From assembly GCA_021738565.1 (NCBI GenBank), contig JAIPBT010000002.1:71774-135773 (forward strand): DNA of 64,000 bases. The letters run 5' to 3'. The DNA comes from Bacteroidales bacterium. Lineage in GTDB: Bacteria; Bacteroidota; Bacteroidia; Bacteroidales; GCA-2748055. Below, piece by piece: positions 17,114 to 34,613 of the stretch (positions are counted from its first letter, which is position 1; each line of letters begins with the position of its first letter). Both the position numbers and the translations under genes were made by a program. The notes under the pieces are model-generated. The model was not told the origin of the DNA, made no database searches, and worked only from the letters and a program-made list of their open reading frames with translations.

Positions 17114-18571
17114 ATGAACCCTTTGAAGGTATTCATATTCTTCATCGCAGTGTTAGGATTCCTGTTTCTCCTTTCCATTGTATTTCCACCGGAAGGAATT
17201 ACGCTGGGAGAAGATGCAGAACTTCGCTTTGCTTCAGCCGATAAGCTGATTAAAAAAGAGATGGAAATTTCAGGCTATACCGATAGCCTTATTTCACATG
17301 CAGATGTATCTGAGGATCCTGAATATAAAGAGGAAAGCATTTCTGTGTCGGTAAAAGATACGATCAGTAAGATATTGAATGATTCTGTCATTCAGGCGCG
17401 GATTGACAGCATTAGCAGAAATGTTTATCCGCTCTATTTCTCCGGTGAATCAGAAGAATTGCTTTATGGTTTTTTTAAAAGGGCGGAGCTGAGCCGGGAA
17501 ACCGGGAAGCTGATACGAATTTTGCATTACGGCGATTCCCAGATCGAAAATGACAGGATGACATCTTTATTAAGGTACAGGTTTCAGCAACTTTTTGGTG
17601 GTTCCGGATGTGGTTTGATCCCCGCGGTACCTCTGTATTCCGGGAATCTTGCATTCAGACAGGATATCCGTGGGGAATGGATGCGCTATACGGGATTCGG
17701 AGATCGCGACACCACACTGGACCATTCATCCTACGGCGTCATGGCCTGCTTTACCTCGGTTCCTCCCCCGGATGAAGAATTACCGGGTTTGCATTTTGAA
17801 TTTCGTAAAAACCGACGTGCCTCCCGGTTCAGCAAAGTCAGTGTGTTTTTACATGCATATTCCGACAGTGGCTACATAGCTATCAATGTGAATGATACGA
17901 TTCAGGATACACTGCAGCATATTCAGGGAGGATATCAGTTACTGCAATACCAACCGGAACCCAATGTAACCGATATAAGCTTTGACTTCCATTTGAGGGA
18001 AGGTGGCAGGATCTATGGTATCAGTTTTGATCCGGCATCCGGAGTGCAGGTGGACAATATTGCAATGAGGGGAAGTGCCGGGCTTGAATTCAGCAGATTC
18101 GACCGAACCCTGACAGAAACTATGCTGGCTGATCTGAACCCTGGTATGGTCATCCTGCAATTTGGAGGGAACGTTGTGCCATATATTCAAAATGTTGACC
18201 TGTATAACCAGTACTTTGTTCGTGAACTTAATTACATCAGGTCATTATGTCCTTCAGTACCTGTTATTGTAATCGGACCATCAGATATGTCCATGAAGAA
18301 AAACGGACAATTTCAGACCTATGAAAATCTGCAGGCTGTCAGGGATGCTCTTTACCTTGCTGCAATGAAAACAGGATGCGGCTTCTGGGATATGTTTGAG
18401 GCGATGGGAGGCGTCAATTCAATTCGTCATTTTGTCCTGGCCGATCCTCCGCTTGCCAATCCTGATCACATTCATTTTACCCCGCGTGGTGCAAATTTAA
18501 TGGCAGGATTGTTCTTTGATGCAGTTATGGTTGAATATCAGAAATATAAATTGAGTGCAAATAATCCTTAA
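17114..18571 (+). CDS. SGNH/GDSL hydrolase family protein, probable O-acetyl transfer partner
   Basis: 485 aa. One N-terminal membrane helix (about 4-24) and a linker place the domain in the periplasm. SGNH blocks are visible: HYGDSQIEND with Ser142 (block I), a glycine in QFGGNVVPY (block III), and DHIHFTPRG with Asp451 and His454 (block V). The insert between blocks I and III resembles the carbohydrate-binding insert of this subfamily. It is followed by a MBOAT gene, the usual partner that supplies acetyl groups across the membrane. The substrate could be peptidoglycan, given the adjacent transglycosylase gene, or a surface glycan. Confidence 0.8.
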   Translation: MNPLKVFIFFIAVLGFLFLLSIVFPPEGITLGEDAELRFASADKLIKKEMEISGYTDSLISHADVSEDPEYKEESISVSVKDTISKILNDSVIQARIDSISRNVYPLYFSGESEELLYGFFKRAELSRETGKLIRILHYGDSQIENDRMTSLLRYRFQQLFGGSGCGLIPAVPLYSGNLAFRQDIRGEWMRYTGFGDRDTTLDHSSYGVMACFTSVPPPDEELPGLHFEFRKNRRASRFSKVSVFLHAYSDSGYIAINVNDTIQDTLQHIQGGYQLLQYQPEPNVTDISFDFHLREGGRIYGISFDPASGVQVDNIAMRGSAGLEFSRFDRTLTETMLADLNPGMVILQFGGNVVPYIQNVDLYNQYFVRELNYIRSLCPSVPVIVIGPSDMSMKKNGQFQTYENLQAVRDALYLAAMKTGCGFWDMFEAMGGVNSIRHFVLADPPLANPDHIHFTPRGANLMAGLFFDAVMVEYQKYKLSANNP

Positions 18572-18606
18572 TTCTATTGTTCAGAAACTAATAAAACACA
18601 CATACA

Positions 18607-18825
18607 ATGGCCCTTATTAAATCAGTCAGAGGATTTATTCCCCGGATCGGAAAGAACTGTTACCTGTCAGAAAATGCCACGATCATTGGCGATGTTGAGA
18701 TCGGTGATGGTTGTTCCATTTGGTTCAATGCGGTGTTGAGAGGGGATGTGAATCCGATCAGGATAGGCAACAAGGTGAACATCCAGGATAACAGTATGCT
18801 AATATTTATGCTATGCCATGGCTGA
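18607..18825 (+). pseudogene. Truncated gamma-carbonic anhydrase-like gene
   Basis: 72 codons. The product matches the first third of the gamma-carbonic anhydrase/YrdA hexapeptide family (IPRIGKNCYLSENATIIGDV, then WFNAVLRGD and NKVNIQDNS). Full-length relatives are about 170 residues and have their three metal-binding His residues after this point, so all are missing. The match breaks off near 18795-18800 and the frame runs nine more codons to TGA, overlapping the start of the MBOAT gene by 13 bases. No remainder is found in other frames. It looks like a deletion scar. Confidence 0.8.
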
Positions 18826-20327
18826 GTGACATATTTTTGTTCAATCCGGAAAAACCGCTTCTTTTTACACAGCTCTATTTCTGGTTGTTCTATGGAGTGG
18901 TATTGTTGGTTTTTTCAATAGTCTACAAGAACAGGGCAGTCAGGAATTCCTACCTCTTCCTGGTTAGTTTGTTTTTCTACTGGAAGACTTCAGGTTTGTT
19001 CTTTCTGCTCCTGATCTTTTCCACCATAGTCAACTATTTTATCGGAAACTGGATATACCGTTCGGAAAACAAAAAAGTACGAAAATTCGGAGTATTCCTG
19101 AGTGTCTTCATAAACCTATTTCTGCTGTCCTATTTCAAGTACACCTATTTATTCGTTGATACACTGAATTCAGTTTTCAATACAAACATTGAAGTTGTCA
19201 ACCACCTTGCCCTCTGGTCGAACAACCTTACAGGTACACATTTCGATGTTTCAGCCATACTGTTGCCTGTAGGCATTTCATTCTACACATTCCAGGTGAT
19301 GTCTTACATAATAGATATTTACAGGAGAAAGGTGGGTCCGGTGAAGAATATTATGGACTTCGGCTTCTATGTTTCCTTTTTCCCCCAATTGGTTGCAGGT
19401 CCCATTGTCAGGGCCTCAGAATTCGTTCCCCAGATAGATAAAAGATACAATCTCAGAAAAGAAGAATTTGGTTATGCCATATTCATTATCATGAAAGGGC
19501 TGTTTAAGAAAGTTTTTATTGGTGATTACCTGGCTGTGAATTTCATTGACAGGATATTTGCCAATCCGGGAGGGTTTTCAGGTTTTGAAAATCTCATGGC
19601 CCTTTATGGTTATTCCCTGCAGGTCTATGTCGATTTCAGCGGGTACACGGATATAGCGATCGGTGTCGCTCTGTTGATGGGATTCAGGATACCCAGGAAT
19701 TTCAATTCTCCTTACAAGGCGACCAACGTGGGTAATTTCTGGAAACGGTGGCACATATCATTGTCTAGCTGGTTAAAGGACTATCTCTATATACCACTTG
19801 GGGGCAACAGGAAAGGAAGGTTTATGACCGATGTGAACCTGATGATCACCATGTTGCTGGGAGGTTTGTGGCACGGTGCCAGTTGGCAATTCCTTATCTG
19901 GGGGGGAATTAACGGGATCGGACTTGTAGTTTACAAGCAATGGAAAAAGATCAGTCCGTATGAGCACAGCAAACACTGGGCAGCGCGATTGTGGAAGATC
20001 TTTATTACCTTCCAGTTCATCACCTTCACACGCATATGGTTCCGGTCTGATTCTATGGAACATGCCAGTGAACTTATTCACCAGGTTGTTCATTCGTTCA
20101 ATGCATCTGTCATTACCGATGTGCTTGTGTCATACAAGTGGGTGTTCCTGGTAATGTTGCTTGGTTACTTTACGCACTGGGTATCAAATAAATGGAAGCT
20201 TGCCCTGTTGAACTGGTATATCGCTACAAAAATGTGGATGAAGGTGGTAATTGCAGTGGTTGTGGTATTTATCATTTACCAGTCATGGTCAGCAGACTTG
20301 CAGCCTTTTATCTATTTTCAATTTTGA
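18813..20327 (+). CDS. MBOAT family membrane O-acyltransferase
   Basis: 504 aa, about ten or more membrane helices. Family landmarks are LPVGISFYTFQ (151-161), PQLVAGPIVR (191-200), FWKRWHISLSSW with His314 and GGLWHGASW with the near-invariant catalytic His354. It is of the AlgI/PatA/DltB group, which passes acyl groups from the cytoplasm to an extracytoplasmic glycan together with an SGNH partner, probably the product of the gene at 17114. The start MPWLSDIF at 18813 lies inside the carbonic anhydrase remnant, so its upstream sequence may have changed recently. Confidence 0.92.
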   Translation: MPWLSDIFLFNPEKPLLFTQLYFWLFYGVVLLVFSIVYKNRAVRNSYLFLVSLFFYWKTSGLFFLLLIFSTIVNYFIGNWIYRSENKKVRKFGVFLSVFINLFLLSYFKYTYLFVDTLNSVFNTNIEVVNHLALWSNNLTGTHFDVSAILLPVGISFYTFQVMSYIIDIYRRKVGPVKNIMDFGFYVSFFPQLVAGPIVRASEFVPQIDKRYNLRKEEFGYAIFIIMKGLFKKVFIGDYLAVNFIDRIFANPGGFSGFENLMALYGYSLQVYVDFSGYTDIAIGVALLMGFRIPRNFNSPYKATNVGNFWKRWHISLSSWLKDYLYIPLGGNRKGRFMTDVNLMITMLLGGLWHGASWQFLIWGGINGIGLVVYKQWKKISPYEHSKHWAARLWKIFITFQFITFTRIWFRSDSMEHASELIHQVVHSFNASVITDVLVSYKWVFLVMLLGYFTHWVSNKWKLALLNWYIATKMWMKVVIAVVVVFIIYQSWSADLQPFIYFQF

Positions 20328-20347
20328 TTAAAAAGGTCCGGGCTGAC

Positions 20348-21301
20348 CTATTTCCCGAATTTCAGCTCTTTTAAGTTCTGGTTGATATCCTCCATCAGTT
20401 TTCTCTGCTGTTTGATCAGTTCTCCGATGATCCCCAGGAAAATGCTGAAAATACCTATAAAAGAGAATATTGCCAGTAATATGAGGGAAGGAATATAGGT
20501 CCTTTCCGGATCCGACTCAGGGGTTATGAAAACAAGGTATATGAACCTGATTCCGAGTATAAGTGCAGGGATCAGGAAGAGGGAGGCTATGATAGAAAAA
20601 AATCGCCCCGGCCTGTAAAGGACAAACATATTCATTATTGTGGCACTTGATTTACTCACATGCTCAAAACTATTCCTGAAAAGCCTGGATTTCCTTGTTT
20701 TCTGGTTTACCCTTACGTCCACGGATCTGACCCGCATGTTTGAGTTCCCTGCCTGTATCAGGGTTTCCATCGTGTATGAAAATCTTGAATATACATAGGT
20801 CTGGAAACAGGCCTTTCGCGACATGGCCCTGAATCCCGAAGGAGCATCCTTGATCTTCGTTTTGGATATCAGACGAAGGGTCATACTGCCAAGCAGTTGC
20901 AGGATCTTTTTTCCTAAAGAGAATTCCTTGTGCTTCATTATGGGTCTGCTGCCTACCACAATGTCTGCTTTGTCATCCAGGATGGGTTGTACAAGCCTGG
21001 CTATGTCTTCTCCTTTATACTGGTTGTCACCATCAGTGTTTACAACAATATCGGCCCCGTGTTCAAGACAGTAATTAAGTCCCGACATAAAAGCATAGGC
21101 GAGGCCCCTGTTTGTACCGAGTTTTACAATATGCCTGACGCCCAGGTTTTCAGCTGTTTTTAACGTGTTATCAGTGCTCCCGTCATCTATTACCAGGACC
21201 TGGATATCATCGATTCCGTCAATTTTATTTGGGAGATCATTGATCACCAAGGGCAGGGTTTCTTCCTCGTTCAGGCAGGGTATTTGAATGAAAAGTTTCA
21301 A
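20348..21301 (-). CDS. Family 2 glycosyltransferase, polyprenyl-phosphate type (DPM1-like) with C-terminal helices
   Basis: 317 aa from TTG 21301, which begins LKLFIQIPCLNEE and aligns with the usual start of the family; an ATG at 21388 would overlap the upstream gene by 29 bases and add an AT-rich, poorly conserved leader. GT-A motifs: VIDDGSTDNT, NTDGDNQY (metal-binding DxD-like) and SGFRAMSR. Two C-terminal membrane helices follow at about 236-260 and 272-300. Enzymes of this kind transfer a sugar from its nucleotide to undecaprenyl or dolichyl phosphate. It is last in a minus-strand operon and converges with the MBOAT gene, 20 bases apart. Confidence 0.85.
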   Translation of the reverse strand: MKLFIQIPCLNEEETLPLVINDLPNKIDGIDDIQVLVIDDGSTDNTLKTAENLGVRHIVKLGTNRGLAYAFMSGLNYCLEHGADIVVNTDGDNQYKGEDIARLVQPILDDKADIVVGSRPIMKHKEFSLGKKILQLLGSMTLRLISKTKIKDAPSGFRAMSRKACFQTYVYSRFSYTMETLIQAGNSNMRVRSVDVRVNQKTRKSRLFRNSFEHVSKSSATIMNMFVLYRPGRFFSIIASLFLIPALILGIRFIYLVFITPESDPERTYIPSLILLAIFSFIGIFSIFLGIIGELIKQQRKLMEDINQNLKELKFGK

Positions 21302-21359
21302 GTTTTTATATTGATGGTTGCTAAAATATGAAATTTTATTTTTGGGAATCAACAGAATC

Positions 21360-22946
21360 TCATAAAAGATTATAGATCGTTGTGACAACGGCTTTTTTGT
21401 CTTTTCTGATTATTGTCTCAGCCGGAACAGCAATTGTATTCAATAAAAAATCCTCCCTGTGCCATGAATCTGCACTTGCCACATGCCTTTTGGATGCCCT
21501 GGGGGCCCTGTAAAGATGTAACTTTTTATCAATTTCACTTATGGTATCAGTGATGATGAGTGCATCACTTCCAATATCTATTTTTCTGTGAAATCTAATG
21601 CCTGATGTTTTTGATTTGTAAATTAAGATATTTCGCAGGATCCTGGTGAGGTTTCCACCTGGCACCAATCCGAACACCCGGAGCCAGAAGTGTAAAAAAG
21701 GTGTGCTTTTTTTCTCCCGGTGGGGGAAAAGTGCCCCGCGGATCTCTATGGAATTTTCATCCTGCAGTATTTCCCATGTATCCGACCACCAATGATTTAC
21801 AAATTGTTTTTTACCATGTACCGCGATCCATCCATAGTCCGAAAACAATGTTTTCTCATTGCTGAAAACGGATAGAATTCCACCCTTTTTTGTTGCAACT
21901 ACCAACCTTTTCTTTGCTTCAGGCAGGTCCCTGAAAATATATCCCGATTCAAGAAATGTATGATCGGGTTCCGGGTGATCTTTACCGGCTGATTTTAGGG
22001 TCTTCACGCCCAGCATGGTTAGTGTTGCTCTTGCTACGGAATGACCAATGTAATGGATCCAGTAACGGTCGTCGATGCCATGAAAAAAATGCTCCATGTC
22101 GTCTGTATCAGGAAACAGAATGCCCATGATATCCTTGCTTTTTTCCCGGGTTTTCATGTCGGAATGTTCCAGGAACCTGGTAATCCCGTAAGGAACAATA
22201 TAATCTGTGTTACGAGCATTTTGCATCCCTGCACCGTTGCCTCGCCTCAGGACAAATCCATGGATGAAGTCAAGCGCTTTTTCGGCAGATCGTAAAAAAT
22301 CATTATCTGATGTATGGTCATACAGATCCCAGAGGCAATCAAGTGTTACGGAGAGGTACCCGAGGTCAGGCCCCCCGTATTCAGCAAACCACCCCTCCTC
22401 ACGTTGCAGTTGGAGGGTTCTTTTTTTGATCGCCTTGAAATTGTCTTCGTTTACAAGTTCAGGAGAGATTTTTCTTATGACAGCCAGGGCTGCAAGGCCG
22501 GCTACTTGTTGATTCCCTGCCTGGGATTCAAATCTTCCCTGTAGTTGCCGTGAGGCTTTTTTTAACCCACCAAGAATTTCATCGCTGTATACAATACCTT
22601 CTGAAACCAGTTTTGCCATTGCAAGCGTGGAAAATACAAGCGGGGGATATCCCCTTTCCCGGGGATAATATTCTTCGAAAGCGCCATGCTTTAATGCTTT
22701 CTGGTTCCAGAACAAAGCAGATGCGCGGGCGAGTTTTTTAAGCTGCTGCTTATAATTTTTATAGTCTTCAAGTTTTGAATATAAAAAAGCAAAATACCCA
22801 CCCTGTTGCAGCATATCAGAGGAATAGTCCCGGATCCGGTAATGCCACCAGTTCCTGTCAAAGCAACCATAGAATGGCGAATATTTATCCCTGCATGCCT
22901 GCGTGAGCATCCTCGGGAACTGTTTTTTCAAAATTTTATCAAACAT
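21360..22946 (-). CDS. Heparinase II/III-like protein of a surface-glycan locus (putative)
   Basis: 528 aa, no signal peptide. The first ~330 residues are helical with repeated aromatic/Gly patterns, consistent with an alpha/alpha toroid, and the rest is rich in beta strands (IRFHRKIDIGSDALIITDTI), like the C-terminal domain of heparinase II/III lyases. Cytoplasmic proteins of this layout occur inside O-antigen and capsule clusters, where their reaction is not established. It starts three bases after the FrhB-like gene and is followed by the GT2 gene, so it probably acts on the same glycan. Confidence 0.6.
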   Translation of the reverse strand: MFDKILKKQFPRMLTQACRDKYSPFYGCFDRNWWHYRIRDYSSDMLQQGGYFAFLYSKLEDYKNYKQQLKKLARASALFWNQKALKHGAFEEYYPRERGYPPLVFSTLAMAKLVSEGIVYSDEILGGLKKASRQLQGRFESQAGNQQVAGLAALAVIRKISPELVNEDNFKAIKKRTLQLQREEGWFAEYGGPDLGYLSVTLDCLWDLYDHTSDNDFLRSAEKALDFIHGFVLRRGNGAGMQNARNTDYIVPYGITRFLEHSDMKTREKSKDIMGILFPDTDDMEHFFHGIDDRYWIHYIGHSVARATLTMLGVKTLKSAGKDHPEPDHTFLESGYIFRDLPEAKKRLVVATKKGGILSVFSNEKTLFSDYGWIAVHGKKQFVNHWWSDTWEILQDENSIEIRGALFPHREKKSTPFLHFWLRVFGLVPGGNLTRILRNILIYKSKTSGIRFHRKIDIGSDALIITDTISEIDKKLHLYRAPRASKRHVASADSWHREDFLLNTIAVPAETIIRKDKKAVVTTIYNLL

Positions 22947-22949
22947 TTG

Positions 22950-24284
22950 TCATATTCTTTTTATCTGGTAAGTATCAAGTCCTTTTCTCTTGGCGGGTTT
23001 GCTGATCTTTTTCCATCTTAGACGCATGTAGTTAAAAGCCGGTCCGATCATTTTTTCCGGGATGATGGTCATTATTGCCCTTGAAAACCTGTTTCCTGCC
23101 AGCAATAAGATAAAAGAAATTACCATTTCTGTCAATTTTCTTGAAAAAGAAATGTAAATGGGACGGTAACCATGGTCCGGAACCGGGTGCCCGAAAAATG
23201 CCCGCATCCTGTTCCTAAGGTAGCTGCCGCGTTTTTTAAAATCCAGCATATGTCCGTGCATGGCAATGGATTTTTCTTCCGCAACATCTTCCGCATTAAT
23301 TAGATGCTGATCATTCATATCACTGATTATTGATTCCATTTTTTTTGTTCGGGTAATGAAAACAGAAAATCCTTTTCCCTGGCTTTCATATTCAGGAGAC
23401 CATGCATCTCCCACCGAGAGATCTGCAAATTCATTGACAAAGTCCATGCTTCGCAGGCTGGTATGTGTGATGAAAAAAGGAATTAAATAATTGTAATATA
23501 CCTTTTTTGACGTTACCACCTTGCCCGACCGGGTTTTGATCTCAAGATGACCGGGCCAGTCACCTTCTCTCCATTTGAGTGAAGTGACCGGATCTTTTTT
23601 TGAAATTCTTTTTGAGCGAAGAAAAGCATGGATTGCAGCAGGGTAAAGCGCTGTGCCGGTATAAGGACCGAGAATATATTGTACTTGCAGGGCGGCGGGA
23701 TGTTTCAGAGATTGAAGCTTTCTAAGCGCAGCAGACTGTTCCGGCAGGCAAACCATGGCATATTTTTCACCAGGTTTGAAATCCTTTAACCGGTCCAGTG
23801 TAGAAACCGGTATATAGACCGATTGCATGGAACCTTTGATCTCTTCCTCCGATCGGGCTATGAATGATGATGCTTCCAGTGGTTCGGGCATGCCCTGTTT
23901 TACGCAAACGGCACCATCAATGTATCCTTTTTGTAATAGATAAATAAGGGTTGCTGTAATAATACCACCGGATGCACTTTTGTTTCTGATCCCTTCCGAG
24001 GCGCTGTGCCCGATCCTTACTTTCTGAATATGTCCGTAAAGCAGGTTTTCAGGTAAATTTCCATAGTGCGTTTCATAGAGTTCGGGGTAGCTGATACCGA
24101 TTCCGGGACAGACCTCCAATGCTTCTTGTGTAAATTCTCCGGATGAAAGGTCCGGTACCGGTCCATGCGGGGTAGGGATCATCTTTGACGAACCATTTGA
24201 AAAAAGGATGCATGCTCCGCATCCTGCACAGTTTTTGTGTTTGATCACCTGTTCCAGCTTATGCTCTGTTTCTTCGGATGCCAT
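22950..24284 (-). CDS. FrhB/FdhB-like iron-sulphur protein (F420 hydrogenase beta subunit family) in a glycan operon
   Basis: 444 aa from ATG 24284; a TTG at 24302 falls inside a -7 promoter element and is rejected. A Cys cluster (NCAGCGAC, counted from the ATG as about Cys19, Cys22, Cys25, plus CPG at about 59) can hold an Fe-S cluster. NKSASGGIITATLIYLL and WREGDWPG, with FADLSVGDAW, are hallmarks of the family's N- and C-terminal domains. Members outside methanogens are frequent in polysaccharide clusters and are thought to be flavin-dependent oxidoreductases or act with pyruvyl transfer; the reaction here is unknown. It is first in the operon. Confidence 0.82.
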   Translation of the reverse strand: MASEETEHKLEQVIKHKNCAGCGACILFSNGSSKMIPTPHGPVPDLSSGEFTQEALEVCPGIGISYPELYETHYGNLPENLLYGHIQKVRIGHSASEGIRNKSASGGIITATLIYLLQKGYIDGAVCVKQGMPEPLEASSFIARSEEEIKGSMQSVYIPVSTLDRLKDFKPGEKYAMVCLPEQSAALRKLQSLKHPAALQVQYILGPYTGTALYPAAIHAFLRSKRISKKDPVTSLKWREGDWPGHLEIKTRSGKVVTSKKVYYNYLIPFFITHTSLRSMDFVNEFADLSVGDAWSPEYESQGKGFSVFITRTKKMESIISDMNDQHLINAEDVAEEKSIAMHGHMLDFKKRGSYLRNRMRAFFGHPVPDHGYRPIYISFSRKLTEMVISFILLLAGNRFSRAIMTIIPEKMIGPAFNYMRLRWKKISKPAKRKGLDTYQIKRI

Positions 24285-24299
24285 ATGCCCAGCTTTATT

Positions 24300-24333
24300 C
24301 AAATGTAAGGTTTTTCTTTATTGGTGCTTGCAA
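24300..24333 (-). promoter_or_regulatory. Bacteroidota-type promoter for the FrhB-like/heparinase-like/GT2 operon
   Basis: Minus-strand TACATTTG (24307-24300) with TTG at 24333-24331 and a 23-base spacer fits the consensus. Transcription would start near 24293, nine bases before ATG 24284. Confidence 0.45.
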
Positions 24334-24573
24334 GAAAAAGCCAATAGCTTTGCTCTTAATGCTTTTTTATCAAGCACTGTGCTTAATAATATGAGTTTTC
24401 TTTCTGAAACTAATTAGTGCTTGTCAATAAAGTCGGGTGATAAAAAGATCTATGAGGCGCATAATTCAGGCTGCAGAATATAATGGTTCACAGGGGATTA
24501 TTTTAAGCCTATTCACTATATTAGCTACCTGTTTTTTGTTGGGATTTTATATGTTTTGTTCAAGATTTTCCGA

Positions 24574-26190: not shown

Positions 26191-26201
26191 CCATATGCCT
26201 T

Positions 26202-26224: not shown

Positions 26225-26232
26225 GTTTTACA

Positions 26233-27204
26233 TTATTCAGCCGTAGAAATTTCCTTCAGCCTGAAATGTTTCCTGAACCATATCAAATAGGATAACCCTC
26301 CTAATACCATGGATCCAAGATAATTGCATATAAAATATGCCGTGGAAATGGTAATGGCCGATTCGGTTGAATGTTCCAGGATTTTCCAGACTTCGGAGAA
26401 TACCAGTTCGCGTGTGCCAAAACCACCAATGGTAACCGGAAGAAATGCCAACATATTTGAGATCGACACAGCACTGACGGAATGTATGATCCCGATATCC
26501 TGACCGATCCTGCTGGTAAAAATAAGCGGAATCAGCGCAAGCAGCAGGAAAGCTGTTAAAGTTGTAAAGAAACCGGGGAAAAAAAGGCGCAAAGCATTTG
26601 ATTTCCAGTCTGTATGTACTTTTTCAAGGTCATCTTTCAGTTGACCTTTCTTTCTAAATAGATACAGTAGGGGGACAAAAACCAGGGAAGGAAACAGTAT
26701 GATGGCAATAGCTATAAGAAAGAGTGCCCCGGTAAGGACAATAGTCAGTGCGCTGGTATCAAATCCTCCAAATATCATGATGAAGCTGATGCCACCAAGC
26801 AGACTCAGCACCAAAATGTCCCATATTCGGTCGAGCACCACGGAGGAAGTGATGATGGCAGCCGGCGCAGAAGTTTTCCTTCGTATAAAAAATATCCTGG
26901 AAAATTCTCCCAGTCTTCCGGGGGTAATGACACTGAGGAACCCTGAAACAATAAAGAATATCAGTGTTGTGCCATAATTGATCCTGATTCCGAAAATACT
27001 ATTGATCATCAACCATCGAAATGATTTAATGATGTAGACCATTATAAGCAGGATGAACCCAAATATGAAATCCCATATTTTAAATGATGCAAATAATTGT
27101 GAAAACCCCTGCCAGTCAAAATCTTTCAGGATGAAATACAACAGAACAAAACCTGTTGCATGAAGCAGGTAATAAACGATCTTTCCCAAATATCCTTTTT
27201 CCAT
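26233..27204 (-). CDS. Lysylphosphatidylglycerol synthase-type flippase-like membrane protein (UPF0104)
   Basis: 323 aa from ATG 27204 (a GTG at 27222 is possible). About eight helices with the family's core motifs: SFRWLMINS after the second helix, TPGRLGEFSR, DRIWDILVL and LPVTIGGFGTRELVF. This is the membrane domain found at the N-terminus of MprF and in AglD-like proteins. Stand-alone members lie in glycan clusters and are suspected to move or present lipid-linked sugars; no synthase domain is present. A second member of the same family is encoded at 31001-31894. Confidence 0.85.
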   Translation of the reverse strand: MEKGYLGKIVYYLLHATGFVLLYFILKDFDWQGFSQLFASFKIWDFIFGFILLIMVYIIKSFRWLMINSIFGIRINYGTTLIFFIVSGFLSVITPGRLGEFSRIFFIRRKTSAPAAIITSSVVLDRIWDILVLSLLGGISFIMIFGGFDTSALTIVLTGALFLIAIAIILFPSLVFVPLLYLFRKKGQLKDDLEKVHTDWKSNALRLFFPGFFTTLTAFLLLALIPLIFTSRIGQDIGIIHSVSAVSISNMLAFLPVTIGGFGTRELVFSEVWKILEHSTESAITISTAYFICNYLGSMVLGGLSYLIWFRKHFRLKEISTAE

Positions 27205-27233
27205 CCGGTCATATTGGTTCACGAAGGTAATAA

Positions 27234-27267: not shown

Positions 27268-27288
27268 TGTGTCATTAAGATTAGCTCC

Positions 27289-28389
27289 ATGTTAAATAAC
27301 AAGACCATAGCCGTAGTAGTCCCTGCTTATAATGAAGGAAAACAGATCGAGATGGTATTGCGGAATATGCCCGGTTTCGTTGACAGGATCATTGTTGTAA
27401 ATGATGCCTCAACGGATGAGACCGGAAAGATCGTCCGGGAAGTTGCAGATAGCGATGATAAGGACCATTCCAGTGACCGGATCGGCCAGTTGAAAATCAA
27501 ATCGGATCTTTATAACCAGGCTGAGATCATGATGGAGAAACTGGATAAAGAGCGGTCGAAGGCTCTTACTGCCTCGGATATATGGAATAAATCCCCGGAA
27601 AAAAACAGAATTATTCTGATCGAACACCAGGAAAACGCCGGTGTAGGAGCAGCAATAGCAACGGGGTACAACTGGTGCAGGGATAACAATGTCGATTGTA
27701 CAACTGTGATGGCAGGAGATGGACAGATGGATCCCGCTGAACTCAAAAGCATATGCCTGCCGGTTGTGAAGGATGGAATCGACTATGTTAAGGGCAACAG
27801 GCTGATCCATCGCAGTGCCAAGTATATGATACCAAAGACGAGGTACATAGGAAATTCAATACTGTCTATAATGACAAAAATTGCATCCGGTTATTGGAGG
27901 GTTTCAGACACACAGACAGGGTATACGGCCATTTCCCTTCATGCATTGAAAAAGATTGATATCAGCCGGATATATAAAAGATACGGGATGCCCAATGATC
28001 TACTTGTAAAACTCAACCTGGCCAAATGCACACTCAAGGAGGTGGAGATCAAGCCGGTTTACCGGGTAGGGGAACAATCGAAAATGAAGATCTATAAACT
28101 GATCCCCAGGATCTCATGGTTATTGTACAAAGCATTCTACAAAAGGATATGGATCCGATACTTTAAAAAAGATTTTCATCCGCTTTTCCTGCTATACATG
28201 CTTTCGTTTGTATTGTTTGCAGTATCTATTCCTTTCCTGGTCATTATCCTGGAAAATATGTTCACTCCCGGTGCTGCCACCCCGAACAGCATCTTAATGA
28301 TCTATATATTTCTTGTTATTTCCGGTTTCCAGTCGCTTTTCTTTGCCATGTGGATGGATATACAGGATAATGACAGGCTGCAGAAATAG
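27289..28389 (+). CDS. Family 2 glycosyltransferase, polyprenyl-phosphate type, with internal insert
   Basis: 366 aa from ATG 27289. GT-A motifs are VVVPAYNEG (9-17), VVNDASTDET (36-45), GVGAAIATGYNW (118-129) and AGDGQMDP (metal site). Between the second and third motif there is an extra charged segment at about residues 53-105, absent from ordinary DPM-type enzymes. Two C-terminal helices are at about 300-325 and 332-357. It starts the plus-strand operon GT2-MBOAT-SGNH and would load a sugar on a polyprenyl phosphate. Longer in-frame extension upstream runs through the divergent gene and is rejected. Confidence 0.85.
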   Translation: MLNNKTIAVVVPAYNEGKQIEMVLRNMPGFVDRIIVVNDASTDETGKIVREVADSDDKDHSSDRIGQLKIKSDLYNQAEIMMEKLDKERSKALTASDIWNKSPEKNRIILIEHQENAGVGAAIATGYNWCRDNNVDCTTVMAGDGQMDPAELKSICLPVVKDGIDYVKGNRLIHRSAKYMIPKTRYIGNSILSIMTKIASGYWRVSDTQTGYTAISLHALKKIDISRIYKRYGMPNDLLVKLNLAKCTLKEVEIKPVYRVGEQSKMKIYKLIPRISWLLYKAFYKRIWIRYFKKDFHPLFLLYMLSFVLFAVSIPFLVIILENMFTPGAATPNSILMIYIFLVISGFQSLFFAMWMDIQDNDRLQK

Positions 28390-28397
28390 AAACAGGG

Positions 28398-29816
28398 ATG
28401 GTTTTTTCAAGCACCATATTTTTACTTTATTTCTTTCCTCTATTTCTTTTAGGTTATTTTCTTACAGCCGACAGGTACAGGAATTATGTGCTCCTGGCAG
28501 CCAGCCTTGTTTTCTATGCCTGGGGGGCTCCTGAATTTGTATTTATACTGGTTGGTTCTACAATCATAACTTTTTACCTGATCAGAAAGATGTACCGGAT
28601 TCCGGATCCCAACACCAAAAAATGGTTGCTGGTTGCATCGATCGTATTGAACGTCGGGATCCTGGCTTATTTCAAATATGCCAATTTCTTTGTGGATAAT
28701 TTTAACTCGGTTTTGCTTTCTTTGGGATTTAGCGGCGTTGAATGGACAAATGTGGCGCTCCCCATTGGAATTTCATTTTATACCTTTCAGTGTTTGTCTT
28801 ATTGCATTGACGTTTACCGGGGAGTGAGTCCTCCATTAAGAAAACCCACTGACTTTTTGCTGTATATAAGTATGTTTCCACAGTTGATCGCTGGTCCGAT
28901 CGTCAGGTTCAATACCATTTCAGAACAGATTACGAAGCGGGAATCCAGGGGTTCCGACACGATCCTCGGCTTCTACAGGTTTGCGATTGGACTTGCAAAG
29001 AAGGTGCTTATTGCAAACGTAATGGGGAAACATGCAGACATTATTATGTCAATGAACCTGGCGGAAATAAGCACCAATGAAGCCTGGATCGGATTGTTTG
29101 CGTATGCTTTTCAGATCTATTTCGATTTTGCAGGATACTCCGATATGGCCATCGGCATCGGACGTATGCTGGGATTCAGGTTCCCCGAAAATTTTAACAA
29201 TCCTTACATTTCAAGAAGCATTACGGAATTCTGGCGTCGCTGGCACATGACGCTCAGCGCCTGGATGAAGGACTACCTTTATATCCCTTTGGGAGGGAAC
29301 AGGGTTGGCAGGTACAGATTGTTTTTTAATCTATGGATCGTTTTCCTGATATCAGGTCTCTGGCACGGTGCCTCATGGAATTTTGTGATCTGGGGAGCCT
29401 ACCATGGGTTATTTCTTGTTCTTGACAGGCTTTTTCTTAAGAAATTGCTTGAAAAGTCGGGTAAAATATTTGCCATTCCATTCACCTTCCTGGTGGCAGT
29501 TCTAGGCTGGGTGTTTTTCAGACTGGATACTTTTGAACAGGCAATGACATATTTCGGACGTCTATTTGCATTCGAATTTGAACCTTTATATATATTACAG
29601 AAACTGGATCTGCTGATCATCATGATGGTATCATTCTTTTTCTCATTTATAACTGTCACCAGGCTGGGACGCAGACTGGAGTCACTGGTATTCTATAAGG
29701 ATTATACAACAGGGAGGTACATACTGGTGGGCGTTATAATTATCCTGTTATTTATCATGTCAGTAGGAGCCACCACAGCATCAGGTTTTAACCCTTTTAT
29801 CTATTTTAGGTTCTGA
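28398..29816 (+). CDS. MBOAT family membrane O-acyltransferase (AlgI-like), second copy
   Basis: 472 aa, about ten or more helices. It begins MVFSSTIFLLYFFPLF as typical AlgI-like proteins do. Landmarks: LPIGISFYTFQ (121-131), PQLIAGPIVR (161-170), FWRRWHMTLSAW with His283 and SGLWHGASW with catalytic His323. It starts eight bases after the GT2 gene and ends two bases before the SGNH-like gene, so the three are one unit. It differs clearly from the MBOAT at 18813, so the two are not a recent duplication. Confidence 0.93.
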   Translation: MVFSSTIFLLYFFPLFLLGYFLTADRYRNYVLLAASLVFYAWGAPEFVFILVGSTIITFYLIRKMYRIPDPNTKKWLLVASIVLNVGILAYFKYANFFVDNFNSVLLSLGFSGVEWTNVALPIGISFYTFQCLSYCIDVYRGVSPPLRKPTDFLLYISMFPQLIAGPIVRFNTISEQITKRESRGSDTILGFYRFAIGLAKKVLIANVMGKHADIIMSMNLAEISTNEAWIGLFAYAFQIYFDFAGYSDMAIGIGRMLGFRFPENFNNPYISRSITEFWRRWHMTLSAWMKDYLYIPLGGNRVGRYRLFFNLWIVFLISGLWHGASWNFVIWGAYHGLFLVLDRLFLKKLLEKSGKIFAIPFTFLVAVLGWVFFRLDTFEQAMTYFGRLFAFEFEPLYILQKLDLLIIMMVSFFFSFITVTRLGRRLESLVFYKDYTTGRYILVGVIIILLFIMSVGATTASGFNPFIYFRF

Positions 29817-29818
29817 GT

Positions 29819-30946
29819 ATGGACAGGAAATTGAACATAGCATTCTGGGTGATCGTGGGTCTTTTAATCTTACCAATGGTTCAGCAGTTTACAGGCATCG
29901 TGCATGAAAGAAAGCTCAGGGGGGCGGTAGCAAAAGCTGATTATCCTGAATTTGAATTGAGCAACTGGTTTAATGGATCATTCCAGCAGCAGTTTGAATC
30001 TGCCCTGAATGACAGAATAGGGTTCAGGCCCTTTTTTATCAGGGTGAACAACCAGGTTGCATTCAGTTTGTACAGGAAAGCACTTGCCAGTGGTGTGATC
30101 ATAGGGAAGAAAAATTACATGTATGAGAAGAACTATATCCTTGCAGTTCAGGGAGAGGATTTTCTGGGTGATACGGTGATTGAAACACGATCCAGGCGGC
30201 TTAAGGAGATACAGGATTATTTCGGACAAAAGGGTAAGCATTTGATGGTGACTTTTGCTGCCGGGAAGGGGAGCTTTTACCCTGAATTCATACCGGAGCA
30301 GTATAAAAAAGAACCAGGCAGGACCAACCTTGAAGCATATCGGGAACATTTTGACAGCATGGGAGTCAACTATATTGATTTTAACAAATGGTTCCTTGCG
30401 ATGAAAGATACCTCCCGGTATTGTCTCTACCCGAAAACAGGGATACACTGGAGTTATTATGGTATGGTGCTGGTGATCGATTCATTGAGAAACTATCTTC
30501 AAAAAGAGAGAGGCGTTACAATGCCAGAATTCGAATGGGATGGCATTGAATTAACATCGAAATACCGGAGCAGCGATGACGATATTGAAAAAGGGATGAA
30601 CATCCTCTTCCGTGTCAATTACGAAAAGCTTGCTTATCCGCGGGTAGCATTTTATGATGAGGGAATTAAGAAGTTGCATGGGGTCGTTATTTCAGATTCC
30701 TTTTACTGGGGACTGCACAACATCGGATTCAGCAACAGGATATTGAAGGAAGGGGAATTCTGGTATTATTTCAACCGGATCTACGGCAATCACCTTGATG
30801 AGGTAATCCAGATTGATGAAATTGATGCATTGGAAAGGATTGAAAAAAACGATATTATCATACTGATGGCCACAGAGGCAACGCTTCCCGATTTCCCTTT
30901 TGGCTTCACTGACAGGATCTATCCTGAGATTAAAGTGACTGAATGA
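29819..30946 (+). CDS. AlgX/AlgJ-like SGNH-type acetyltransferase-related protein
   Basis: 375 aa. One N-terminal membrane helix (about 7-24) then a periplasmic domain starting with NDRIGFRPFFIRVNN, a typical opening of AlgJ/AlgX-like proteins. The probable catalytic elements are His210 in KTGIHWSYYG and Ser294 in ISDSFYWG. In AlgX the His is preceded by an Asp two residues earlier (DTH); here that position is Gly208, so the triad may be completed by another acid or be altered. Its role would be to move acyl groups delivered by the MBOAT partner to a glycan. Confidence 0.72.
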   Translation: MDRKLNIAFWVIVGLLILPMVQQFTGIVHERKLRGAVAKADYPEFELSNWFNGSFQQQFESALNDRIGFRPFFIRVNNQVAFSLYRKALASGVIIGKKNYMYEKNYILAVQGEDFLGDTVIETRSRRLKEIQDYFGQKGKHLMVTFAAGKGSFYPEFIPEQYKKEPGRTNLEAYREHFDSMGVNYIDFNKWFLAMKDTSRYCLYPKTGIHWSYYGMVLVIDSLRNYLQKERGVTMPEFEWDGIELTSKYRSSDDDIEKGMNILFRVNYEKLAYPRVAFYDEGIKKLHGVVISDSFYWGLHNIGFSNRILKEGEFWYYFNRIYGNHLDEVIQIDEIDALERIEKNDIIILMATEATLPDFPFGFTDRIYPEIKVTE

Positions 30947-31000
30947 ATATTCAGTATGATCAGATCAATATATTTCATAGAATAAAGAAAGATATCAATT

Positions 31001-31894
31001 TCAGGTGTTAGATTTTATCGAAGGCTTGGTAAGTAATCTTGAAACCAATGCCAGTAAAAAAATAAAACCTTCCCCCGTGATGAAAGCCAACCGGTTCAGG
31101 AAGGAAATAGTCGTGGCCGTTTCAACATCCATGCCTGCGAGAACCAGGTAACCTATAATAATACCTTCACGCAGTCCCAGTCCACCAGGCAGCAAAATGG
31201 CGATCAATCCGAAACATACACTGAGGGGAAATGCAAAAGCCATAATAGGGGTTACCTGTTCTGAGAAAGTTCTGATAAAAAAATAGAATGCCAGGGTCCA
31301 GCAGAGCCAGATCAATGAAGTGGCCATGATCATGGGCAGTGATTTTCGAAAAGGAATGACCGGTACATCGAATTCACGCCGGATGATCCTGTGGATGCTT
31401 TTCATTGCCAGGTTGTGAACCGGAGGTATGAACAGGAACAGGGTAATGATGAAGATCATTGCCAGAAGGATCAATGAAAGCCAGTGGATCCCATAGAAAA
31501 TAAAGGTAGGTATGGCACTGATGATAAATCCCACCCAGGTGTAAATGATCTGTTCCTTGAATGAAATGAACGATGTGTTTTTCAGCTCCTTCTTGCTTTT
31601 TGAAATATAACTGGCACGTCCCAGTATTACCCAAATTTTACCAGGGATGTATTTGGAGAATATTGACTGGCCGTGTGAGATCAGTGCATTTCTGCCTGAG
31701 ATGTTCAAATTATGGGTTGACAGTGCAACTCTCCAACTGACGGTACTTATGTAGAAACCTGCGAACAAAAGGAGCATTGAGGGAATCAGCCATATTGGGT
31801 GGGGAAGTTCAGGAATTATAAAATCCTGCCTGACCAGGTAGATGAACAGGAATATGAATGAAAGAAATACCAGCAAATTGAATAGTTTCTTCAT
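31001..31894 (-). CDS. Lysylphosphatidylglycerol synthase-type flippase-like membrane protein, second copy
   Basis: 297 aa from ATG 31894; a TTG 16 codons upstream is less likely. About eight helices with the motifs SWRVALST, IPGKIWVILGRASY, and LLPGGLGLREGIIIGYL, the last being the most conserved part of the UPF0104/AglD-like family. It lacks the soluble synthase domain of MprF. It lies between an O-acylation operon and a transposase gene, facing the other way. Confidence 0.83.
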   Translation of the reverse strand: MKKLFNLLVFLSFIFLFIYLVRQDFIIPELPHPIWLIPSMLLLFAGFYISTVSWRVALSTHNLNISGRNALISHGQSIFSKYIPGKIWVILGRASYISKSKKELKNTSFISFKEQIIYTWVGFIISAIPTFIFYGIHWLSLILLAMIFIITLFLFIPPVHNLAMKSIHRIIRREFDVPVIPFRKSLPMIMATSLIWLCWTLAFYFFIRTFSEQVTPIMAFAFPLSVCFGLIAILLPGGLGLREGIIIGYLVLAGMDVETATTISFLNRLAFITGEGFIFLLALVSRLLTKPSIKSNT

Positions 31895-32111
31895 TTGTAG
31901 CGCCTGTAATTTTTCATAAAGATAGGATATGAGAGGTAACAAATGGATTTTGCGGGTTAATTCTTCATGGCCTAATCTGAAATGTTGATATTAATTGGAA
32001 ATACATTCATTGCAGATACCTTTTCAGATAATTAGATCCGATCCGTTTCAATATGCAGGTTGTATGAAACAATAATTTATGGATTGCAATATTCATAATT
32101 ATTTGCACGGT

Positions 32112-32795
32112 TTATCTGATCCAATTCATTGGATTGCTGATAATATATTTTCTAATTCGCTGAAATGATTGTTCGTCGCGGATGATATGATCATAAAAAC
32201 CGGATTGCCATTTGAATTCAATATCATGCATTCGCGCATATTTTGTAACGCCGGTTTTATAACCACGTACGATCGATGCCAAATTTTGTGATTGTGGACC
32301 GAATGCATTTTTTGGTTGGTTGGTTGATAGAGACGCAAAATTTTGCGTCTCTACCTGCCCATCTGCGCCCCCCTGCCCATCCGCACCCCCCTGCCCATCC
32401 GCACCCCCCTGCCCATCTGCACCCCCCTGTCCATCCGCAATCCCTATCCCATTTTCATCATTTATATCATTTCGTCTATTTCCGTCATTCGCATCATTAA
32501 CCAAATGACCTGGTTTATCAATAATAATTATACCGTGAACATGGTCTGGCATTATGATATGCGCATCCAATTTTACAAACGGAAAATGGTTCGGGATTTC
32601 TATCCAATATTTATGCGCCATTTTTCCAATTTCCGACAATATCATTTTTGTGTTTAGGATGTTGCCAAAACAGGGAACGCGGTTTTTTGTACAGATGGTG
32701 ATAAAATATGCTGCATTCGATCCATAATCCCAGGATTGAAGGCGTGCCGGTTCGATACGATATTTTTTTCTGAATTTTTTTCTGAAATTCACCAT
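32112..32795 (-). CDS. REP-associated tyrosine transposase (RAYT, IS200-like HUH family)
   Basis: 227 aa. The HUH metal-binding motif is MPDHVHG with His85 and His87; the N-terminus SWDYGSNAAYFITICTKNR and the C-terminal FYDHIIRDEQSF are typical of RAYTs from Bacteroidota. The catalytic Tyr is probably within YKTGVTKYARM. Between the HUH motif and the C-terminal part is a low-complexity insert of GGADGQ repeats (18-bp DNA repeats at 32355-32444), directly followed by a stretch encoded by a 26-bp palindrome. RAYTs are single-copy domesticated transposases that act on palindromic REP sequences. No terminal repeats of an IS are visible. Confidence 0.85.
   Translation of the reverse strand: MVNFRKKFRKKYRIEPARLQSWDYGSNAAYFITICTKNRVPCFGNILNTKMILSEIGKMAHKYWIEIPNHFPFVKLDAHIIMPDHVHGIIIIDKPGHLVNDANDGNRRNDINDENGIGIADGQGGADGQGGADGQGGADGQGGADGQVETQNFASLSTNQPKNAFGPQSQNLASIVRGYKTGVTKYARMHDIEFKWQSGFYDHIIRDEQSFQRIRKYIISNPMNWIR
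32328..32353. repeat. 26-bp perfect palindrome inside the RAYT gene (REP-like)
   Basis: The half-site TAGAGACGCAAAA is followed at once by its exact reverse complement. Sequences of this GAGACGCAAAATTTTGCGTCTC type are frequent dispersed repeats in some bacterial genomes (from general knowledge). Here it lies in frame in the RAYT coding region. Confidence 0.85.
32355..32444. repeat. Tandem 18-bp repeats (about five units)
   Basis: Units of the form CTGCCCATCCGCACCCCC start at 32355, 32373, 32391, 32409 and 32427; the first and last are divergent. On the coding (minus) strand they encode GGADGQ hexapeptides in the RAYT. The region is much richer in GC than its surroundings. Confidence 0.9.
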
Positions 32796-32978
32796 ATTGT
32801 TTATTAATGTTTGTGACTACATGGAATAATTAAATCATATATTCAGTTCATTAATGTCCCCGCCAATAATTAAATCGTCATGTTGTGTAAAATTCCTGTT
32901 GTTTTGGTTTTAAACGGCTCCCCGGGTTGAAACTCTTTAGAAATAAATTAAATTTGATCTTTTGGAAATTTTTCGGTT
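32796..32978. other. Intergenic region with promoter for the 32979 gene
   Basis: No gene is visible. TTG at 32927-32929, a 19-base spacer and TAAATTTG at 32949-32956 form a good Bacteroidota-type promoter on the plus strand. Confidence 0.5.
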
Positions 32979-34613
32979 ATGTTTTCCTGTCCTTTGGTAC
33001 GTGCTTCCATGATTATTTATCCATGGCTTGTTAAGCGTGAAAAATACATATTCCTGCTTTTCCTGTTTATTGCCATGCTGCAGTTATGGCTGACGCGCTA
33101 TGTTCCTTCACTTGACGGCCCGCAGCACCTCTACAATGCAAATGTGCTGGCTGAGATGATCAGTGGAAATGAATTTATCCGTTCATTCTTCCGGGTGAAT
33201 GACGTTATCGTGGGATATTGGACAGGTCATTTTTTCCTTGCTTTCTTCAAAATTTTCCTGCCAGCATGGCTCGCTGAAAAATTCTTTCTTTCTGCATATG
33301 TTATTGCCATGGTATTCTCTTTCCGATATTTTGTCAGCGGACTGAATCCAATGAAGGGGAATTTTGTGTCTTACCTTGTGTTTCCATTTATATATCACAG
33401 CTATTTATTACTGGGGTACTACACGTTCAGCATTGCGGCAATTTTCTTCTTCCTGGCTTTCGGGTACTGGACCAGGTATGGTGAAAATTTTTCATGGCGA
33501 AGGACAGGGGTATTTGCATTGATATTGACCGGACTGTTCCTGTCGCACGGACTGGTTTATGTGTTGTTTGGTTATGCTTTCATTATTTATCTCCTCGTGA
33601 CGTTCTTATATGAAAGGTTGAACAAAGAGATTGATTTCAGCCTGACCGGATGGCTTGTGAAGCTTTTGAAGATTGCAGCAGCCACAGTGCCATCAGGGGT
33701 ACTGTGCGCAATTTATATCAGGTCAGTAATGTCTGTTAACAATACAATCATTGAGCCTTCCTATACGTTTGCTGAGCTTGTTAAATTTTTGATGAGGATC
33801 CGGCAACTGGTTGGTTTTCATCATGAAATGGAGTCTGTAGGATACATTCTCTTATTCATTCTGATGGCGGTACTTTCGGTCGGATTTCTTATACTGTTTG
33901 TGCCAAAGCTCCTGGACGGGTCAAAGAAATATTTGGATCTTCTGAATTACCGAAATGCATTGTTGTTTGTAGCAATTGGGATGCTGGGACTTTACTTTTT
34001 TGCTCCTGACAGGTTCTCAGCGGGGAACCTCACGAACAGGTTCGGACTCTTCTTTTACCTTGCATTGATCAGCTGGTTGTCTGTACAGAAATTTCCCAGG
34101 ACTTTACAACTGATTTCCCTGTTGGTTATCCTGACGGGTTTTTCTTATACCCGGTTTATTCAACAGCGATTTTACCAGGGGCTGAATAAAGATATTATTG
34201 CGATAGAAGAACTGGCTGAAAGAATTGAACCCAATTCTGTTGTCCATTACCTGCAATCCTCCAATAACTGGGCGCACGTTCATTTCCAGCTGTATGCAGC
34301 GGTTGACCGCCCTTTAGTCCATCTTAAGAACCCTCAATGCCAGGGACAGTTCCCTGTAGTATGGAATTATGTAAAGCTTCCGGTCTGTTATGCCGGGAAC
34401 CATGAGGTAAGGCCTGCAGGTGCATTGGAAAGACATGAAGAGAACGGGTCATTACCGGTTGATTACATTACCGTATTTCAATATGAAAGATACATGGCAG
34501 ACAGCACCAATGCAGATTGGCACCGGATATTGAAAGAAAATTATGATCTGGTAAAATTAAGCAAAGACGAAAAAGCTGCCTTGTTTAGAAATATCAGTAT
34601 GCAGGCTGATTGA
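32979..34613 (+). CDS. Large multi-helix membrane protein of unknown function, GT-C-like
   Basis: 544 aa, about ten helices. After the first helix comes RYVPSLDGPQHLYNANVL, an acidic/His loop in the place where GT-C enzymes keep their catalytic Asp, and a hydrophilic C-terminal domain of about 130 residues follows the last helix. I cannot place it in a named family. Its position at the end of a glycan region and its similarity in layout to the protein at 24574 suggest a membrane glycosyltransferase. A later ATG at 33009 gives a 534-aa product and leaves more room after the promoter at 32927-32956. Its last 20 bases overlap the convergent NPD gene. Confidence 0.6.
   Translation: MFSCPLVRASMIIYPWLVKREKYIFLLFLFIAMLQLWLTRYVPSLDGPQHLYNANVLAEMISGNEFIRSFFRVNDVIVGYWTGHFFLAFFKIFLPAWLAEKFFLSAYVIAMVFSFRYFVSGLNPMKGNFVSYLVFPFIYHSYLLLGYYTFSIAAIFFFLAFGYWTRYGENFSWRRTGVFALILTGLFLSHGLVYVLFGYAFIIYLLVTFLYERLNKEIDFSLTGWLVKLLKIAAATVPSGVLCAIYIRSVMSVNNTIIEPSYTFAELVKFLMRIRQLVGFHHEMESVGYILLFILMAVLSVGFLILFVPKLLDGSKKYLDLLNYRNALLFVAIGMLGLYFFAPDRFSAGNLTNRFGLFFYLALISWLSVQKFPRTLQLISLLVILTGFSYTRFIQQRFYQGLNKDIIAIEELAERIEPNSVVHYLQSSNNWAHVHFQLYAAVDRPLVHLKNPQCQGQFPVVWNYVKLPVCYAGNHEVRPAGALERHEENGSLPVDYITVFQYERYMADSTNADWHRILKENYDLVKLSKDEKAALFRNISMQAD

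Follow-up and report, generated by a model that had tools for sequence, protein, structure and literature searches.

Gene content and the dock

We analysed a window of 64,000 nt, the whole stretch from position 71,774 to 135,773 of contig JAIPBT010000002.1, from a Bacteroidales bacterium (GCA_021738565.1; the window's own genome is G000 below). All coordinates are positions within this window. The region from 17114 to 36989 is a real concentration of envelope genes containing one real trio: a glycosyltransferase of family GT2, a flippase-like protein of family PF03706 and a large membrane protein modelled as a GT-C glycosyltransferase. The trio lies in what we call the dock, the space where convergent genes meet between the acyltransferase gene MBOAT1 and the gene of a conserved regulator of sigma-54 type. 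The contents of the dock are separable, exchangeable sugar-transfer and acetylation cassettes that differ between species.

The left side of the region is made up of SGNH1 (17114..18571, + strand), encoding an Ape1-type SGNH protein that is anchored at its N-terminus and has a beta-rich insert separating GDS (140) from GGN (351), and MBOAT1 (18813..20327, + strand), encoding a PatA-like membrane O-acyltransferase (PF03062, E 1.4e-30) with an FWKRWH motif and the C-terminus FIYFQF. MBOAT1 is the left border of the dock, and the response regulator (35823..36989, - strand; PF00158/PF00072) is its right border in the family. Central to the dock are GT2b (27289..28389, + strand), a polyprenyl-phosphate-type GT2 (PF00535, E 2.9e-15) with two C-terminal hydrophobic segments, and LPG2 (31001..31942, - strand), a flippase-like protein of 313 aa (PF03706, E 2.1e-14; also a sub-threshold SecE match). 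The open reading frame (ORF) of GT2b is listed from 27160; the ATG at 27289 is the better start, with which all seven family sequences align over 366 columns. Upstream lies big1 (24574..26190, + strand; ORF listed from TTG 24556, ATG at 24574), a GT-C membrane glycosyltransferase by model, and downstream lies big2 (32979..34613, + strand), a second GT-C candidate with 6 or 9 hydrophobic segments, depending on the threshold. Between GT2b and LPG2 sit MBOAT2 (28398..29816, + strand), an AlgI-like acyltransferase (PF03062, E 3.4e-33; C-terminus FIYFRF), and SGNH2 (29819..30946, + strand), an AlgX/AlgJ-like anchored SGNH protein (PF16822, ALGX, E 2.4e-8).

The initial annotation had read ten genes of this region, two each of the SGNH, MBOAT, GT2, LPG-type and large membrane classes, as two parallel five-part glycan modules. 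All ten ORFs are present where it had placed them, and it passed over three others: one resembling a transposase, one for an FrhB-like protein and one for a protein of 528 aa. Its description of the pairs as divergent copies holds for MBOAT1 and MBOAT2 (36-40% identity) and for GT2a and GT2b (21%), but not for the others: BLASTP within the SGNH, LPG and large-membrane pairs gave no meaningful match, the profile comparison of big1 with big2 gave a probability of 0.2%, and LPG1 and LPG2 share 14.9% identity, though both match PF03706. With three of the five pairs lacking sequence similarity, two modules by shared ancestry were rejected.

To follow the locus in relatives, we searched 28 genomes of the family, of which 25 match MBOAT (E<=1e-30); the surrounding contigs were fetched and the window genes mapped onto them. 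Both borders of the dock are visible in 14 family genomes, with three docks empty and 11 filled. The empty docks have gaps of only 3 bp (G002), 44 bp (G011) and 3 bp (G015) between MBOAT1 and the regulator, which is followed by ppx, ABC genes and, where seen, dnaJ. All 11 filled docks (G000, G026, G024, G008, G019, G020, G022, G023, G014, G012 and G010) hold a gene of the GT-C or big1-like/big2 kind.

The contents of the filled docks vary widely. The arrangement big1–GT2b–LPG2 fills the docks of G010 and G026, and likewise that of G016 with one border seen, whereas GT2b–LPG2–big2 occurs in the dock of G012 and, again with one border seen, in G017. The GT-C gene is thus swapped around one GT2b–LPG2 pair, with big1 upstream (G016, G010, G026) or big2 downstream (G017, G012). 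The G014 dock carries big1–LPG1–FrhB, a methyltransferase-like gene and additional genes resembling GT2; similar contents are seen in G009 and in the cut G013, and the methyltransferase-like gene has a Pfam match in G009, to which the G014 gene is 69% identical. In G008, G019 and G020 we found big1-like genes (31–42% identity) and a short GT2-like gene. The docks of G022 and G023 hold a GT-C gene (PMT_2 match in G022; 69% identity between the two), about 48% identical to a gene in G019 and G020, together with a 759-aa gene. The G024 dock combines big1–GT2b–MBOAT2–SGNH2–LPG2 with big2, efflux genes and outer-membrane genes. As for the window itself, its dock holds GT2b–LPG2 with both big1 and big2, MBOAT2–SGNH2 inside the pair, and LPG1–FrhB–GT2a in addition.

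The LPG1–FrhB–GT2a group looks like part of a second, incomplete donor unit. It comprises GT2a (20348..21388, - strand), a polyprenyl-phosphate-type GT2 (PF00535, E 5.2e-24) with two C-terminal hydrophobic segments by hydropathy; an FrhB/FdhB-type protein (22950..24302, - strand; PF04432/PF04422); and LPG1 (26233..27222, - strand), a flippase-like protein of 329 aa (PF03706, E 1.7e-33). An FrhB-like gene adjoins LPG1 in G009, G014 and G013. A third PF03706 gene of G000 lies outside the region, on contig C20:63822-64742, while MBOAT1 and MBOAT2 are the only two MBOAT matches in the whole genome.

Two further ORFs lie within the dock. The 528-aa soluble protein (21360..22946, - strand) has no Pfam or NCBIfam match and no predicted transmembrane segment, for which reason a tentative labelling as Wzx was dropped; a single weak PDB match, to an alpha-1,6-mannanase (E 0.093), is not interpreted. 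Its homologue (58%) adjoins LPG2 in G026 (L005:12737-14317), and in the window it lies between GT2a and FrhB. The transposase-like ORF (32112..32795, - strand) has only a sub-threshold, unrelated Pfam match, and its MPDHVH stretch is reminiscent of REP-associated tyrosine transposases. An in-frame 18-bp tandem repeat lies inside this ORF at about 32354-32452. Between 17000 and 36000, no long flanking pair was found among the repeats listed (20 of the 56 families of direct repeats, and 25 inverted pairs out of 74).

Outside the family, the dock may be used as well: G144 (L128) has GT2b one gene from the regulator, L118 has MBOAT1 about 1.5 kb from the regulator, and in L108 MBOAT1 is followed by a GT2-like gene and a big1-like one. 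In addition to the unbroken GT2b on L038, G012 has a broken copy on another contig (L039:9533-11445), beside the end of an MBOAT1 gene; this copy may reflect variation between strains or an artefact of the assembly.

The GT2b–LPG2 pair and its candidate GT-C partners

GT2b and LPG2 are co-inherited. On the fetched contigs, LPG2 is present in 7/7 family genomes with GT2b, side by side in five and with MBOAT2–SGNH2 between them in two; the window GT2b is 66-70% identical to its six family orthologues. We extended the comparison to a census of 198 genomes of the order, in which 13 exceed the set threshold for GT2b, 11 for LPG2, 73 for big1, 20 for big2 and 62 for MBOAT2; G000 was left out of the co-occurrence statistics, which cover 197 genomes. 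GT2b and LPG2 share six genomes (6/12 GT2b carriers and 6/10 LPG2 carriers, p=2.3e-6); the two genes are on a single contig every time, separated by 16–66 bp in 5/6 and by 1986 bp in one. Their distances correlate over 13 pairs (r=0.85, 0/5000), and a GT2–PF03706 pair was found together in seven sampled families. Among the 12 fetched GT2b contigs, four are without LPG2 and two are too short to tell.

Other combinations behave differently. GT2b and MBOAT2 share only 3/12 genomes (p=0.78), while big1 and big2 share 14 (p=6e-4) and big1 and MBOAT2 share 33 (p=6e-4). Co-occurrence across genomes, which the initial annotation had named as a check, thus bears out GT2b–LPG2 and speaks against GT2b–MBOAT2; MBOAT2 does not track GT2b. 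What stands of the proposed modules is the recurring trio of a GT2, a PF03706 protein and a GT-C, with GT2b–LPG2 inherited together, and not two five-part sets.

Sequence-profile searches of big1 and big2 against the PDB returned nothing useful, and no Pfam family was found for either protein. For big1, an AF2 model was obtained with a predicted local distance difference test score (pLDDT) of 87. Structure comparison of this model (VIA) matched ALG12 with Z 23.7 (root-mean-square deviation, rmsd, 4.0; 350 aligned), yeast oligosaccharyltransferase (OST) with Z 21.5 and ArnT with Z 21.1 (rmsd 4.2; 346 aligned). Foldseek alone gave weaker matches, the best being PglB at E 4.5e-5. The modelled fold supports big1 as a GT-C membrane glycosyltransferase. 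Big2 is possibly a second GT-C enzyme, as suggested by synteny, namely its position downstream of GT2b–LPG2 in G017 and G012.

Across the family, the grouping of big1 follows the adjacent donor unit and not the species. More specifically, big1 copies beside donor units of one kind share an identity of 0.61 (15 pairs) and all other pairs 0.46 (40 pairs), whereas MBOAT1, used as a control in genomes with a whole MBOAT1, shows 0.82 vs 0.80 (9 and 27 pairs). Label shuffles reached the big1 difference in 3/5000 cases, in 0/5000 in a repeat and in 3/5000 when G003 was left out. When GT2b-linked and LPG1-linked copies alone are compared, 2/70 shuffles reach it, the least possible. In the window itself, it is doubtful which parts belong together. 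Its big1 copy is closest to that of G026 (0.60), which is linked to GT2b–LPG2 but belongs to the same genus; it stands at 0.44-0.47 to the four LPG1-linked copies and at just 0.47-0.49 to the other three GT2b-linked ones.

The predicted acylation pairs

SGNH1 and MBOAT1 form a core pair of an already known kind, outside the glycan cassettes. SGNH1 adjoins MBOAT1 in 23/23 family genomes whose contig continues (the window, 8 and 14 fetched loci; MBOAT1 is cut by the contig end in G010 and G012, and G006, G018 and G025 have no MBOAT match). On the other side of the pair lies a lytic transglycosylase gene (SLT) in 21/22 genomes, the exception being G024, while the contig of G009 ends earlier. In the class as a whole, SGNH1 matches occur in 118/247 genomes (E<=1e-20). 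Among the best 80 named SGNH1 loci, MBOAT1 is matched at 63, no more than 600 bp away in 55 of these cases, and SLT lies within the same distance at 49; these counts are lower bounds, with many short contigs, and some of the loci are family genomes again. A quick tree, which carries a warning of long-branch joins, separates the two acyltransferases: MBOAT1 falls, within 61 rows, into a clade spanning the family (22 rows, support 99), and MBOAT2 has a clade of its own (5 rows, support 100).

The GDSL_2 score of SGNH1, 31.9 bits, falls just below the Pfam cut-off of 32.9 bits. Its profile, built from 14 sequences, matches Neisseria Ape1 (4k3u, E 1.6e-19) and Campylobacter jejuni Ape1 (8gld, 5e-13). 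An AF2 model with a mean pLDDT of 76.6 was compared by Foldseek, and the top five rows were all Ape1 with TM(target) 0.78-0.84 (4k3u, 0.83-0.84); the next row after Ape1 had a TM of 0.33, and single-domain rows lower down reached up to 0.54. A C-terminal F.Y..F is present in 56/58 MBOAT1 and 5/7 MBOAT2 homologues (>=50% identity). The tyrosine of such a C-terminal motif carries the acetyl group in PatA, as described in PMC12148441.

Since SGNH1 models as Ape1, the pair appears to be the known O-acetylpeptidoglycan (pat/ape) cluster, and it probably acts on peptidoglycan in this genome. It resembles that cluster in gene kind and order, the SGNH gene being of Ape1 type and lying upstream of the PatA-like MBOAT gene. 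Two of the cluster's features are found here, an Ape1 protein with an inserted carbohydrate-binding-like domain and a PatA-type MBOAT with F.Y..F beside ape. Outside the family, the MBOAT often has two Ape1-like genes before it, the second lying between SGNH1 and MBOAT1 (including L060, L062, L063, L067, L068 and L072), which is the order ape1b–ape1c–pat published for Bacteroides and Porphyromonas (PMC1199599). The profile of this second gene matches Ape1 at 1.1e-38; its candidates comprise 44 ORFs, at least three of which are SGNH1 itself (about 30% identity). The name ape1c was not adopted: the two were equated by gene order only, and the alignment gives the second gene about 205 residues between its GxS and GTND motifs, whereas Ape1c is described in PMC1199599 as having no insert after motif I.

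The family differs from the published cluster in that no second Ape1-like gene was found in the genomes searched. Its profile recovered SGNH1 alone from the G000 genome, PatB itself not being searched for. In the family, 24/28 genomes match this profile, with the mapped SGNH1 as the main match in 23/24; the G010 match lies on an unfetched contig, and three genomes have an extra short, weak match. This absence leaves MBOAT1 one neighbouring SGNH partner. Clusters with a single SGNH gene are published for Ape3 types, and peptidoglycan O-acetylation is given as 69.4% in B. fragilis and 27.0% in B. thetaiotaomicron (PMC1199599 for both).

MBOAT2–SGNH2 is a different, optional pair. It occurs in four family genomes (G000, G024, G026 and G027); the two genes are 2 bp apart in the window, adjacent in G026, G027 and G024, and also adjacent, with SGNH2 at 33% identity, in G136. 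With MBOAT2 beside an anchored ALGX-type SGNH protein and ending in F.Y..F, it resembles the AlgI-AlgJ/AlgX alginate pair. In G027 it directly follows MBOAT1, and no GT2b was found on that contig, which ends 4.7 kb further, the rest of G027 not being searched for GT2b. The occurrence of components independently of each other in relatives, which the initial annotation had itself named as speaking against its modules, therefore applies to the first acylation pair and, for the most part, to the second. As a whole, the ten genes are not two matching kits, and their two-fold symmetry is that of a core pair beside exchangeable cassettes.

Proposed function, alternatives and known systems

We consider it probable, with real room for doubt, that exchangeable envelope-glycan cassettes dock in this region, between the core SGNH1–MBOAT1 pair and the core regulator, and that the main cassette is a three-component decoration system. 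The proposed steps, sugars and acceptors are predictions from the gene content. In the cytoplasm, GT2b would attach a single sugar to polyprenyl phosphate; LPG2 would help to carry the lipid-linked sugar to the outer leaflet, and big1, possibly also big2, would transfer it onto an envelope glycan outside. The exchanged, specificity-giving part would be the GT-C enzyme. MBOAT2–SGNH2 may optionally O-acylate a glycan, with the MBOAT loading the acyl group on its C-terminal tyrosine and passing it to the SGNH protein. LPG1–FrhB–GT2a would belong to another donor unit, and SGNH1–MBOAT1 would act on peptidoglycan, outside the cassettes. Peptidoglycan was also considered as the acceptor of the cassettes, given the nearby pat/ape and lytic transglycosylase genes, and we found no evidence for it.

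Several observations weigh against this interpretation. Both GT2 proteins score far below the NCBIfam equivalog cut-offs (AglJ-like, 58.5 bits for GT2b and 99 bits for GT2a vs 325). At threshold, an LPG2 match is missing in 6/12 order genomes with GT2b, so that either GT2b does not need LPG2 or some LPG2 genes escaped the search; when each family contributes a single pair, the distance correlation falls to r=0.64 (350/5000) and is not significant. Linkage of GT2b to big1 across the order is weak (7/12, p=0.097), and none of the 12 carriers has big2. G003 was assigned to its big1 group by the identity of its GT2 (83-91%) and 250-aa (75%) neighbours to those of G007, not by a flippase gene. No GT2 was recognised in the docks of G022 and G023, which hold a GT-C gene, and in G024 efflux-type genes (HlyD, AcrB, OEP; L009:9478-15377) lie between big2 and LPG2. 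Finally, that a PF03706 protein moves a polyprenyl-phosphate sugar is something we infer, and the best-known PF03706 case, MprF, is described as a phospholipid flippase (PMC5898192).

The varied contents raise the alternative that the dock is a mere tolerated insertion site, gathering unrelated surface-glycan genes with no unit beyond single gene pairs. Convergent gene ends are harmless places to insert, and both the G024 efflux genes and the transposase-like ORF of the window would fit such a site. In contrast, GT2b and LPG2 are associated in genomes other than the window's own, big1 groups by donor unit, and a GT-C or big1-like/big2 gene is found in every filled dock. We regard this explanation as unlikely.

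A second alternative, which we judge slightly more improbable again, takes GT2b–LPG2 to make and flip a glycosylated phospholipid, like the proposed gpgSDF of Pseudomonas aeruginosa, with the GT-C genes belonging to other pathways. The gpgSDF genes, as presented in PMC12713373, include a UPF0104/COG0392 protein beside a glycosyltransferase, and the GT2b carriers with no LPG2 match and the weak linkage to big1 would agree with this. However, GpgS is described there as a family 4 glycosyltransferase, whereas GT2b resembles AglJ and has two hydrophobic segments at its C-terminus; the GT-C or big1-like/big2 kind of gene in 11/11 filled docks and the donor-wise grouping of big1 also speak against this alternative.

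Two co-inherited five-part modules, each set working on one glycan, are very improbable: the ten genes are of fitting classes, big1 and MBOAT2 co-occur across the order, and one such set stands outside the family in G136 (L134: big1, GT2b, LPG2, MBOAT2 and an SGNH2-like gene together, with big1 and SGNH2 at 33% identity; no other of the 12 fetched GT2b contigs carries such a set), but SGNH1–MBOAT1 is present even at the empty docks, G027 has MBOAT2–SGNH2 with no GT2b on its contig, MBOAT2 does not follow GT2b across the order, and SGNH1 is Ape1-like while SGNH2 is AlgX-like.

Building on the dock with its three-component cassette, we tentatively suggest that the family varies its surface glycans by exchanging the GT-C behind a constant GT2–PF03706 pair at one dock, and that PF03706 proteins may be bacterial polyprenyl-phosphate-monosaccharide flippases replacing GtrA, a proposal that we hold with less than even confidence. 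In extracytoplasmic glycosylation, the flippase step for polyprenyl-phosphate sugars is weakly established. GtrA (PF04138) has 0 matches in the genome (98.47% complete), and a GT2–PF03706 pair in a genome where GtrA was not found offers a clean setting for studying a flippase role of PF03706. Relatives with an empty dock can serve as natural controls when asking which gene determines the structure of the glycan.

Known three-component systems consist of a GT2-type lipid-sugar synthase, a flippase candidate and a GT-C enzyme (PMC11127046, PMC8035078). The cassette resembles the GtrA-GtrB-Gtr*, CsbB-GtcA-YfhO and Citrobacter youngae GT136 systems, as these are outlined in those sources, in having the same three predicted protein roles, here encoded together; the GT-C is the variable part here, and the GT-C fold is found in the big1 model. 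It differs in its candidate flippase, which belongs to PF03706 and not to GtrA/SMR or MATE/Wzx. Neither LPG1 nor LPG2 has an aminoacyl-lipid synthase domain fused to PF03706, unlike MprF and LPG synthase. In the portions of the literature covered by our search, no description of PF03706/UPF0104 as part of a bacterial three-component system was found. The same trio of protein classes is present in the archaeal arCOG00899 (PF03706) neighbourhood, for which PMC5898192 reports an AglD-like glycosyltransferase and an STT3/PMT-like protein, with a flippase role proposed. In contrast to that neighbourhood, the cassettes described here occur in Bacteroidota, have an exchangeable GT-C and a dock by pat/ape, and show no S-layer N-glycosylation context. 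What is new beside the known three-component and pat/ape systems is the dock together with its donor-matched GT-C.

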